Source: Tilletia caries (Eukaryota > Basidiomycota > Exobasidiomycetes > Tilletiales > Tilletiaceae). From it: a stretch of 64,000 nt of DNA. The DNA is taken from contig JALUTQ010000003.1 of the NCBI GenBank assembly GCA_032718865.1, positions 2,030,001 to 2,094,000 of the forward strand, written 5' to 3'. The notes beneath the pieces are model-generated. The model worked only from the letters and a program-made list of their open reading frames with translations. It had not been told where the DNA came from and ran no database searches. Of the stretch, positions 33,340 through 49,690 are shown piece by piece; position 1 is the first letter of the stretch; the number at the start of each line of letters is the position of its first letter. A program made the position numbers and the translations under genes.

Positions 33340-34520
33340 GCAAAATGCTCGATAGTCTCGCAGGCCTCGTCTCCGGCTATGATGGAAACCACGAGCTCGA
33401 CTCCGTGGCGGTGGGCCACATATCCCGCAGACGTCAACTATCTTACGATACGCATCACCATGGGTCTCTACGGCGTCGCCATGGTCCCCGTCGCCTACTC
33501 CACATCCGGCGCTCTCGGCTGGAACTGGCGCGCGCGCCAACTGCTCGCCGGCATGGTCCTATGCGGTACGTTGATCCCTTTTCGCTTGATTTCAGCTCGC
33601 GCGACAGGCGACCTTAACCTTTTCTTCCTACCTCTTCCCCCCTGTGATGGTATCCAGACAATGCGTAGCTTGTCATCTCTCGCTTCATTCTTCTCGACTC
33701 CGTGCTGCTCTACTTCACCTTCCATGGCATGGTCAAGTTCCACTCCTATCAGAACCGGTATGTCTCTTTTCCCTTCCTGACCTTCAAGGCGCATACACTG
33801 ACCCATCCACGTTTCCACCAGACCTCTCTCCGTCACGCGTGTTCCCTGGCTCATCTTCATAGGCGCGTCAATCGGCGCAGCCACCAGGTACGTCTGCGCT
33901 CACCTTCATCAGAGACTGATCTTCGCACATCGCGCTTACCAGGGCCTTCCTTCTACAGTTCAAATGGGTCGGCTTGTTTGCCATAGCCCTCGTTGGTCTC
34001 TGCAGCATGGAGGATCTGTGGGAAAAGTTTGGTGGTTTCCGAATGCGAGTGGTACGTCTTCTTTTCCTCCCACACCACTTCTTAACGTCTTCATGCTGAC
34101 TTGTCAGTCTTCCATCGTCCATCGTCCATCGTCCATCGTCGAACAGCGAAATATGCAAAACACTGATGTGCCAGAGCACTCGCTCTCATCGTAATGCCCG
34201 CCATCATCTACATGATTTCGTTCAAGATTCACTTCGTCCTTCTTAGCCACTCCGGTCCAGCAGCTCACAGATGAGCAGTCTCTTCAGGCTGGTCTCAAGG
34301 GCAATGAGTTTGCAAAAAAACCCTGTTGGTACGTACAACTCGAGCAACAAAATTGCACTCCTCTGCAGTCCTTGCACGTACTAATCCATTCCATCTTATC
34401 ACGCCACAGAGGCTGCCTACGGTAGCAAGGTCACGTTCAAGAACATGGGCCAAGGCGGCGGTCTCCTGCACTCTCACGTATAGACATACCCAACAAGAAG
34501 CCAACAGCAGTTGGAGAAGC
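33340..34520 (+). pseudogene. Protein O-mannosyltransferase (PMT2-type) fragment, dead
   Basis: In order, the three frames contain GKMLDSLAGLVSGYDG, YPADVNYLTIRITMGLYGVA, LVISRFILLDSVLLYFTFHG, VKWVGLFAIALVG-like FKWVGLFAIALVGLCSMEDL, IIYMISFKIHFVLLSHSGP and MGQGGGLLHSHV. This is the order of a PMT2-family enzyme, which O-mannosylates Ser/Thr in the ER membrane. Introns are still recognisable. Lesions: a frame change near 33415; TGG to TAG at 33666-33668 in the ISRFILLD block; loss of frame near 34265-34300; and CAG to TAG at 34481-34483. Both protein ends are missing, and the first exon is preceded by a fatty-acid-synthase-derived intron. It cannot give a working enzyme. Confidence 0.85.
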
Positions 34521-35287
34521 CAGGACTTCGCACATTCTCGCCGTCGAGATGGCCTTCAACATCCTCGGCCTGCTCAGTCCAGTCATGTCTTAATTCACTC
34601 AGATCGAGCCCATTTAGGCGGACCTCGGCCGCTCGGCGGTGGCTTTGACCGCGTCCCCCTCGTACTGTGCGCTTGTTTATCAAACTGAACCTTTCTCATC
34701 CACTCTGACTTCGCTTCCCTTCCCTTGACAGCTCTATTACTTCCAGGGGGCTAATATGTATGTACTATACCTCCTCCGTTTGCGGTATGATGGGTGTGAT
34801 GGTCCAAGCATATCCGCTTATCGCTTTGACATCAATTTGCAGGAGCACAGCACCCACTTACACGGCAAGAGGTTGGTCTTCAACACTCTACCCTGCTCTG
34901 CCTTTCCTTACTAATTACTTATTCTCGTGATAACCAAGCAGCAGATTTCCTCCAGCATGTTCTTGCTATACAATCGCGCCTCGTCCTGTGCGCTTGCTCA
35001 CGACACTTTCTGGTTGCAGATGCAGCCGCTCGAAGATGAAGGTTTGGTCACCTGCTTTTACCAGTAGCACGCTGACTAGTGACTTCCCTTCCCTGCCCTT
35101 AACAGCTTTCGTTCTAGTCCATGGCCCACGCCCCGAACGCCCCTTCTCATGCTGCAGCATAGTGAGTTGGGCTTGTTGCTCTAGGCCTCTAGAACACCAT
35201 ACCTGCATGATGCGCAGACGTACTTACCTGGTTATGCCCTTCCTTCCCCTTCCACTGCGTGTCCCCATCAAATAGAATTTCGCCATC
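34521..35287. other. Degraded DNA between PMT2 and FAS relics
   Basis: Intron-like and short hydrophobic coding scraps (for example LYYFQGANM) are visible but cannot be assigned. They may be the decayed C-terminal half of the PMT2 copy. Confidence 0.3.
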
Positions 35288-48059: not shown

Positions 48060-48977
48060 CCTCTCTTTCTACAGACCCCTTCCAGAACAACGTATCCGTC
48101 CTCCCCGTCGACGACCAAGTCAAGTGCATCGAGGGCATGATTGACGCAGCCGACGAGCGCGTGCGCGCAAAGGGCATCCCCACTAACTTCGACGAGTGGA
48201 TCGTGCGCATGATGGGTGAGTCCATTTCTTCCGTACTAATTTCTGGTACGTGCGGCCAAGCTGACGCAAACTTGTGATGCGCGGCGCGTGCTCTTCTTCC
48301 GTTTTTCAGGTGTCGGTATCGCAGATCTCTTCATGCGACCTTACAACTTCAAGGTCTGGGCCGTTCCCACCACTCAGGTACGCTAAAGCATCCCCTTATC
48401 GGCGCGCGTCGCTTCCCGGATCCGATCCGAGCTGACCACTTTTGCCATCCCCTTGCGCGTCTTTTTTTGTACCAGATGTAAATGGCTCGGAGAGCGTGTC
48501 GCTGCTCCCTCACTCAAGCTCGTCGTCTCCAACACCCTCAACAAGAAGGTAGCCGGCAACTGGGGTCCCAACGCCACATTCAAGTTCCCTGCCTTCGGCG
48601 GCACGGGTGCCATCTGGAAGGCCGTGGCCAAGACGCTGCCGTCGGACAAGCTTCTGTTCAAGAAGCGCGTCGCCAAGATCGATGCCAAGGGTCACCTCGC
48701 CCACCTTGAGGACGGCAGCAGTGTGCAGTACAAGCACCTGATCACTACGATGGAGCTCGACTTCCTCGTGAACAACTCGGAGAACGTCGAGCCGAAGTCG
48801 CACGGCATCATGAAGGCCGCCGTGCGCGAAGGTCTGGTGTACTCCTCCACTCACGTCATCGGCATTGGAATCCGTGGTGTGCTCCCGCCTCGGATCGGTG
48901 ACAAATGCTGGCTGTACTTCCCCGAGGACGACTCGCCGTTCTACCGGGCGACCATCTTCAGCAATGGCGTGTGCTGA
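48060..48977 (+). pseudogene. UDP-galactopyranose mutase fragment
   Basis: Contains NNVSVLPVDDQVKCIEGMID, TNFDEWIVRMMGVGIADLFM, RPYNFKVWAVPTT, KWLGERVAAPSLKLVV, VAGNWGPNATFKFPAFGGTG and THVIGIGIRGVLPPRIGDKC, with YFPEDDSPFYRATIFSN at the end. These are hallmark blocks of eukaryotic UDP-galactopyranose mutase, a flavoenzyme making UDP-galactofuranose for the cell wall. The N-terminal FAD-binding third is absent, and the C-terminal part is lost after ATIFSN, where the frame stops at 48975-48977. A two-base deletion lies at the exon start near 48477 (ATGTAAATGG where the frame needs ATGTGCAAATGG). Dead fragment. Confidence 0.87.
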
Positions 48978-49690
48978 TCCGACGGGGGCGACGGCGATGG
49001 CGGATGGAGAGGGATACGAGTCTGGGAAGAAGAGCGGACATAAGCCGGGCACGCCGAGCACGATCCGAAAACTTGCCCAGGCGGTCGTTGACGGCGGGAT
49101 CGCAAAATGACGAGCAAGGGAACGGCAACCCCTCGTTCCGACCTTCTTTCCCTACTGGCGGCGCCGCTGGTCGTTCTGCAAGCTCATCATTGGACGCTGT
49201 CATCTGCCCTGGCACCGAGGCAAGGTCTACATCCTTTCTCCCACTCCCAACCTGGCTGGAAGAGCTCCATCTGGGTGAGTCTACTTATGATTGTTGTGGG
49301 GTCTAGCAGCTGTACTGACAATCGGTGAGAGTTTCTCTTTACAGCACTCCGCTTTGACGGTTCACACCCGCGTGCTCTGGTCAGCGCCCGCACAAATGCC
49401 AGTGACCAGGATGCAACAAGTCGTTCTCCGGTTCGTCTTCGATCGCCCGGCACCGTCTTCATTTCCAATAGCATCAACAAGAAAGAGAACGAAACAGTCG
49501 TCGACATGACCGGTGAGGCGGTGACCCTCCGCACGCCCAAGGGGGAGCTCGCGAAGCAGCGACGGCAGGACAAGAAGGACAAGTCCAAGACGGCAGCGGC
49601 GAACGGCAACAGAGAACACCATTCGGTGCACTCGCCTCGAGGAACGCATTCTGTCCGTCAAGGACCAGCAACATCATCTGTTACGTGAGT
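48978..49690 (+). pseudogene. Unassigned coding fragment
   Basis: Protein-like stretches include WHRGKVYILSPTPNLAG near 49210-49260, and a Lys-rich run DMTGEAVTLRTPKGELAKQ at 49506-49562 that continues in one frame to a GTGAGT donor at about 49684. Splice signals are present. I recognise no family; it looks like the last captured piece of the graveyard. Confidence 0.35.

Follow-up and report, generated by a model that had tools for sequence, protein, structure and literature searches.

A mosaic of truncated host genes in the genome of Tilletia caries is very probably the cargo of a Helitron2-like rolling-circle transposon. The mosaic lies in a stretch of 64,000 nucleotides (the window, C3:2030001-2094000), within an element that spans positions 30361-50315 and lacks its 5′ tip at this site. 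The assignment draws on sequence comparison: ends and cargo are common to two copies with different flanks, the closest copies of the genes are scattered over the genome, and Rep domains are associated with tips of this kind. The initial annotation had seen unrelated truncated genes in one orientation at 33340-49690, and had likened them to capture by Helitrons or by a recombinase. Capture by a Helitron is borne out by the results below. The limits had been set too narrowly, and three more gene pieces (48971-49609) follow that of UDP-galactopyranose mutase (UGM).

The array was mapped against its own genome (38.1 Mb, 40 contigs, referred to as C1 etc.) and then re-aligned with the fetched loci, alignments shorter than 60 bp being left out of the second step. 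The lists of matches are lower bounds.

A second copy of the array and the ends of the element

The entire array is found again at C3:688663-722152, as a 33-kb copy on the minus strand with the same fragment order, 5′ body and 3′ end. It matches the window at 30404-30693 (97%), 31689-32156 (94%), 33485-36101 (97%), 43431-43973 (94%) and 44495-50315 (99%). Between these matches, the unread stretch C3:708001-710000 excluded, it carries other pieces of fatty acid synthase (FAS) and VPS13 (C23:836701-837441), an F-box open reading frame (ORF) and a Rep/helicase. The joins between protein O-mannosyltransferase (PMT) and FAS, between SKI2 and UGM, and of three small pieces are common to both copies, and the flanks of the two are unrelated. 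No target-site duplication is evident in the flanks of the second copy (...GTGTAA and T GATCATG), as judged from the occupied site alone; Helitrons make no such duplication and insert at short AT or TT sites. Assembly error was rejected as a source of the array because the two copies, on a 2.16-Mb contig, differ in their flanks and in their deletions.

The left tip is present in the elements on C3, C38 and C19, where it reads TTCCCC(A/G)AACTCTTTAGAGTTA or TTCCCC(A/G)AACTCTTTAGAGTTAGGGGTTTT; the part before GGGG is missing from the window. The first 13 bases of the C38/C19 tip, TTCCCCGAACTCT, recur in inverse form 24 bp before the 3′ end. This asymmetric terminal inverted repeat exceeds all of 2000 shuffles (maximum 10), and 12 of the 13 bases are kept in the C3 copy. 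For the hairpin at the 5′ tip, none of 200 shuffles was as good in C19 (z -3.15) and 4 of 200 in C3. The 3′ end reads ...ATGGCTTGCCATG(T/C)CACAA, with T beyond it, in seven matches, and this pattern occurs 7 times genome-wide (reversed control, 0). To its right, similarity to the window ceases after 50315 for the copies on C36, C40 (two), C29 and C3, and one base further on for that on C22. Both the hairpin at the 5′ tip and an asymmetric inverted repeat whose 3′ half lies 20-40 bp from the end are features of Helitron2 or helentron-like elements.

Position 30404 was rejected as the left end: a 770-bp insertion interrupts the C3 copy at that point, and the shared sequence begins at 30361, behind the tip. 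This insertion (C3:721311-722080) is flanked by TA, has inverted ends CACAAGATGCA/TGCATCTTG and resembles a miniature inverted-repeat transposable element. A Helitron-tip-like sequence of another subfamily, TTCCCCGAACTCTTCAGAGT, lies at 18929-18948 (plus strand; 1 match against 0.01 expected).

The left border in the window adjoins a recombinase repeat, and it is here that serial capture by an adjoining tyrosine-recombinase (Crypton-like) element has to be considered. Two NDC10_II recombinase genes lie near the array, both on the minus strand (21636-23535 and 27261-28911), and the repeat changes into the array element at GGGGTT, a hexamer occurring at that place in both. On C36, 0.54 kb separates a copy of the repeat (99.8%) from a PMT-related piece (84%), the relative orientation being the same. 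The stretch 27000-30366 has 99% copies at C36 (in full), C21 and C5 (two pieces each). However, C36 and C5 run on alike past GGGGTT (54 bases compared, 3 differences), so that the recombinase repeat does not end at the hexamer but was broken there in the window. The repeat stops at 30366 in the window and continues in C36 and C5; thus, the array is not bounded by ends of the recombinase element. It is a Helitron tip, not the recombinase repeat, that is seen at the border of the C3 array copy and in C38/C19. Recombinase capture, the second suggestion of the initial annotation, is therefore very unlikely. The left border in the window looks like a later exchange, or an insertion accompanied by loss of the tip.

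Related sequences occur elsewhere in the genome. A sibling on C22 has the 5′ body at C22:1048119-1048406 and the 3′ end at C22:1069726; between them the genome mapping listed no array match, and the part read has about 0.9 kb of other sequence between matches to 31832 and 49913. Two further loci, C34:656-661 kb and C3:982-987 kb, contain PMT-FAS mosaics of 80-86% identity, and PMT accompanied by pieces of FAS is seen at C33:578-587 kb and C32:553-559 kb; pattern searches found no tip alongside these four. Mosaics without recognised tips speak for an insertion of Helitrons into a pre-existing gene graveyard, with ends and cargo of separate origin. Yet one and the same set of fragments and joins lies between this 5′ body and this 3′ end at two unrelated places, a recurrence that separate origins would not produce, and we regard this explanation as highly improbable.

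Rep domains near the tips

A search with the 26-base tip motif (up to 3 mismatches) gave 21 matches in the genome and 0 for the reversed control. The Pfam domain Helitron_like_N gave 60 match rows, some of them parts of one gene. A Rep on the same strand lies within 20 kb downstream of 7 of the 21 tips (6 of 20 if C38 and C19 are one locus; three of the seven are at 17-20 kb, near the chosen limit). On the same strand upstream there was none (0/21), and on the opposite strand downstream also none. With random points, drawn on the 22 of 40 contigs of known length, a mean of 0.29 tips had a Rep, and seven was reached in 0 of 5000 placements.

In the C3 copy, Helitron_like_N (1.9e-59) and PIF1 (1e-33) are encoded in neighbouring frames in the orientation of the array, 16.6 kb from the tip. 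A second type of Rep is found on C38 and C19, 100% identical (rounded) between the two, 5.3 kb inside elements with the 5′ end of the family. The combination of Rep and PIF1-like helicase that distinguishes a Helitron is thus seen in relatives only (both on C3, the Rep on C38/C19), not in the window copy.

The gene fragments and their closest copies

The element is a mosaic of mostly abutting segments; matches to gene copies, including stretches of a PMT-associated repeat, account for about 14.9 of its 19.96 kb (Table 1). Ten genes are represented: PMT, FAS, VPS13, an MFS carrier and its neighbour, SKI2, UGM, a chloride channel gene, a zinc-finger gene and one unnamed gene, which is perhaps S1/RRP5-like; neither Pfam nor PDB gave a match for it. 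The pieces are cut short or internally deleted, and 15 of 16 alignment rows have a stop or a frameshifting indel relative to the open frames of the copies. These frames were taken from stop to stop and presumed coding; MFS b and SKI2 d are possibly non-coding, and some rows overlap. A TGA in the DSHCT match of the window possibly lies beyond the SKI2-UGM join and was not counted. UGM (47984-48965) is the exception, with 7 synonymous differences, 1 nonsynonymous difference and no lesion over 163 codons.

Most of the gene names given at the outset hold. Inside the window, FAS_N, FAS_I_H and VPS13_N are supported by Pfam and UGM by a PDB match; in the closest copies there is domain support for SKI2, VPS13 and PMT (PF02366, C7:2685824-2686941). 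The MFS name stands less firmly, as its copy on C5 matches MFS_1 with an E value of 1.6e-5, under Pfam's curated cut-off, and had no match in PDB. Two ORFs of the PMT region in the window had no match in Pfam. A 3.46-kb stretch of SKI2 is collinear with genomic DNA at 95.7%, introns included, in agreement with the earlier view that the pieces are DNA copies. An origin as retrocopies was rejected because introns are present in the pieces.

Table 1. Features of the array element. Positions refer to the window; closest copies are given as contig:positions with identity.
Feature	Positions	Strand	Closest copy or remark
Helitron2-like element with array, 5′ tip missing here	30361..50315	+	5′ body common to C3, C38, C19, C22; 3′ end to C3, C36, C40 (two), C29, C22
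5′ body	30361..30693	+	C3, C38, C19 have tip before it; tip lost in window
995-bp stretch missing from C3 and C22 copies	30694..31688	+	30693 and 31689 adjacent in C3, nearly so in C22
PMT upstream region and 5′ part	32994..34510	+	33228-34510 vs C7:2685932-2687209, 85%
FAS piece, blunt join to PMT	34511..34657	+	C35:1191975-1191836, 84%
FAS N-terminal piece	35246..36101	+	C35:1201386-1200531, 95%; FAS_N
FAS piece behind internal deletion	36104..36629	+	C35:1199918-1199392, 90.5%
PMT-associated repeat (~280 bp), second copy	36747..37029	+	87% to first copy, 33043-33321
FAS helical-domain region pieces, 621-bp internal deletion at 37350/37351	37030..38523	+	C35:1194242-1193926, 1193304-1192138; FAS_I_H with one TAG
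VPS13, two pieces meeting at 40042, ~4.8 kb gone	38816..40911	+	C23:842103-840867 (90%), 836106-835234 (93%); VPS13_N
FAS C-terminal piece, after VPS13	40923..41470	+	C35:1189622-1189050, 81%
MFS carrier and beginning of neighbour gene	41580..44012	+	C5:246389-248814, 93%
SKI2 helicase piece, introns present	44529..47983	+	C5:1667709-1671147, 95.7%
UGM piece	47984..48965	+	C5:1675508-1676498, 96.4%; PDB match
Voltage-gated chloride channel gene piece	48971..49176	+	C22:1030692-1030899, 86%; Voltage_CLC in that ORF
C2H2 zinc-finger gene piece	49255..49455	+	C40:1313070-1313273, 84%; zf-C2H2
Unnamed-gene piece	49456..49609	+	C6:216703-216562, 79%; no Pfam or PDB match
Helitron-family 3′ terminal region	49888..50315	+	Common to C36, C40 (two places), C29, C3; all end at 50315
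AGAGTTCGGGGAA, inverted repeat of 5′ tip (asymmetric terminal inverted repeat)	50279..50291	+	13-bp exact match to C38/C19 tip
Terminal palindrome ATGGC-TT-GCCAT	50296..50307	+	Hairpin in fold of 50256-50315, a fold not better than shuffles

The closest copies are spread over seven contigs: C7, C35, C23, C5 (two places 1.4 Mb apart), C22, C40 and C6. This spread bears on a further explanation, a segmental duplication in which a normal neighbourhood of genes was copied and has decayed since; the recurrence of the whole array on C3 could also be attributed to it. Linkage at the closest copies is limited to SKI2 with UGM, which match one 8.8-kb stretch of C5, and the MFS carrier with its neighbour, on another stretch of C5; parents in the same order elsewhere were not found beyond these two pairs. 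On the other hand, the six FAS pieces (all matching C35, at 81-95%) are interleaved with PMT and VPS13, and the C3 copy is bounded by transposon tips on both sides, its 3′ end being shared by the window copy. A segmental duplication is, in our judgement, hardly credible.

All ten source genes stand in sense to the array, on the plus strand (10/10), as the initial annotation had stated; for the C6 gene and the neighbour of the MFS carrier the sense strand was taken from the longest open frame only. With the two linked pairs counted once, there are 8 captures in sense, for which after-the-fact arithmetic gives a chance of 1 in 256. The range of identity to the closest copies, with 79-86% at its lower end (PMT, the short pieces, some of FAS) and 96% at its upper end (SKI2, UGM), is what captures at different times should give, though constraint on the source genes also matters.

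Points against the Helitron assignment

Several observations weigh against the array being Helitron cargo. The lost 5′ tip (26 bases, up to 3 mismatches) was found nowhere in the window, and a Pfam search recognised no Rep in the window copy. At the 3′ end the terminal 60 bases fold no better than shuffles despite the palindrome (73 of 200 as good), and the canonical CTRR is absent. The C22 sibling differs in its tip sequence, and 14 of the 21 tips have no Rep within 20 kb. The C3 RepHel and the C38 Rep are distinct (205 vs 89.5 bits), and the C38 Rep DNA has no match on C3; the C3 RepHel may belong to another Helitron nested in the array copy. Right flanks are alike at C40:1366299, C40:1563816 and C29, with at least five different ones overall, and C38 and C19, which may be one locus, have a common left flank; the independent insertions are thus fewer than the copies.

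The sources of the pieces are subject to similar reservations. They were assigned by open frames and domains, without full gene models. Parts of FAS (C33, C40, C1), the MFS carrier (C5:405.8 kb) and SKI2 (C25, 96.7% over 631 bp) have further copies, so the true source is uncertain. The PMT on C7 has one in-frame TGA within a match, perhaps in an intron, and C7 may not be the true source.

Joins between pieces and possible capture mechanisms

The 3′ 428 bp are constant and the interior is variable. Ten joins could be mapped on both sides: five are blunt, one shows an overlap of 1 bp, and the other four leave 2, 5, 11 and 78 bp unmatched; seven more borders were mapped on one side only. These data bear on how a Helitron would gain its pieces. 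Gain by end-joining or template switching during repair, rather than by bypass of the 3′ end, is compatible with the Helitron assignment, and we hold the two routes to be about evenly balanced. The joins lean towards end-joining, at least for part of the captures or internal deletions. Against this, the sample of joins is small, source DNA that escaped mapping may account for the longer unmatched stretches, and some of the joins reflect internal deletion rather than capture.

In a search by eye for deletion borders resembling spliced introns, SKI2-UGM alone was seen to fall at an exon end. Among the joins at 40-49 kb, a 5′ splice site follows the start of 3 of 13 right-hand pieces at a distance of 2, 4 and 20 bases (seen by eye).

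Experiments with a reconstructed bat element directly support end bypass: passages of PMC4778049 describe its 5′ end as essential and its 3′ hairpin as a terminator open to bypass. By analogy, the tip-less copy in the window should not move, and it is probably non-autonomous and immobile. In the mechanism we propose, a Rep-helicase supplied in trans by relatives would nick the 5′ tip, peel off one strand and stop at the 3′ palindrome. Genomic DNA from many loci would be taken up over several rounds, by end bypass or by end-joining repair with other genomic pieces, and internal stretches would afterwards be lost independently in the copies. That all pieces are in sense could mean that capture is biased, or that pieces of essential genes in antisense were selected against.

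Other features of the window

At 53534-56431, direct repeats of 420 bp (99.8% identical) surround a minus-strand ORF with what we presume to be a zinc-knuckle-like motif; this is probably a young, short long terminal repeat retrotransposon. A 749-aa frame at 237-2483 (minus strand) matches LAGLIDADG_3 just above the cut-off and Hom_end below it, resembling a homing endonuclease or an intein. A cysteine-rich, repetitive open frame of 931 aa at 13696-16491 (plus strand) is followed by a long Ser/Thr-rich frame.

Comparison with known Helitrons

Maize Helitrons are plant elements with the canonical ends 5′-TC/CTRR-3′, whereas Helitron2-like ends are seen here in a fungus. An orientation bias has been reported for them, which the maize passages cited below do not show. 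Similar to the present array, they combine fragments of unlinked genes in one element, with up to 39 kb and nine fragments (passages of PMC3288121 and PMC6431247). Stepwise gain of fragments and loss of the interior, described for maize in part of PMC3288121, fits the two array copies found here. According to a passage of PMC5148889, maize Helitrons capture genes very often, and such an extent is rarely seen elsewhere.

The initial annotation had taken capture of this kind to be uncommonly described in fungi. Helitron gene capture in fungi is in fact published (parts of PMC4289320 and PMC5148889), and what stands of that claim is the unusual extent. Fungal Helitrons reach about 14 kb (passage of PMC6431247). 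Passages of PMC9172201, PMC4905642 and PMC2575219 contain nothing on such many-gene cargo in a fungus, and a literature search at title and abstract level, with subscription journals mostly outside it, found no fungal Helitron with so many host-gene pieces. Capture by Helitrons is already known; a load of this size in a fungus is a new form of it.

The closest structural parallel is given by the Helitron2-type elements FoHeli1-5 of Fusarium oxysporum. As described in parts of PMC5148889, they share with the present family RepHel relatives, non-autonomous copies and an asymmetric inverted repeat whose 3′ half precedes the end by 20-40 bp; some of their subgroups have tip hairpins, paralleled here by that at the 5′ tip. 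They differ in size (about 5-11 kb) and in their terminal bases (TCAG...ATTTT, TGCCT...CTCCTGT). The same passages report 27 putative capture events and no evidence of capture being important. In Pleurotus ostreatus, HELPO1 and HELPO2 are likewise basidiomycete Helitrons with extra genes; unlike the present element, they hold 1-4 captured genes without copies outside Helitrons, with a 12.2-kb copy in one subfamily (passages of PMC4289320).

Tentatively, a fungal Helitron2 family might shuffle genes on the scale known from maize, joining pieces of essential genes by blunt end-joining in sense only and copying the mosaics to several loci, possibly with chimeric transcripts or effects on the regulation of the parents. 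Such arrays resemble gene duplicates or chimeric genes, of which annotation should take account. At 20 and 33 kb, and with ten host genes represented in pieces, the elements found here offer, besides maize, a second system with a small genome for the mechanism of capture and the shared orientation of the captured pieces.

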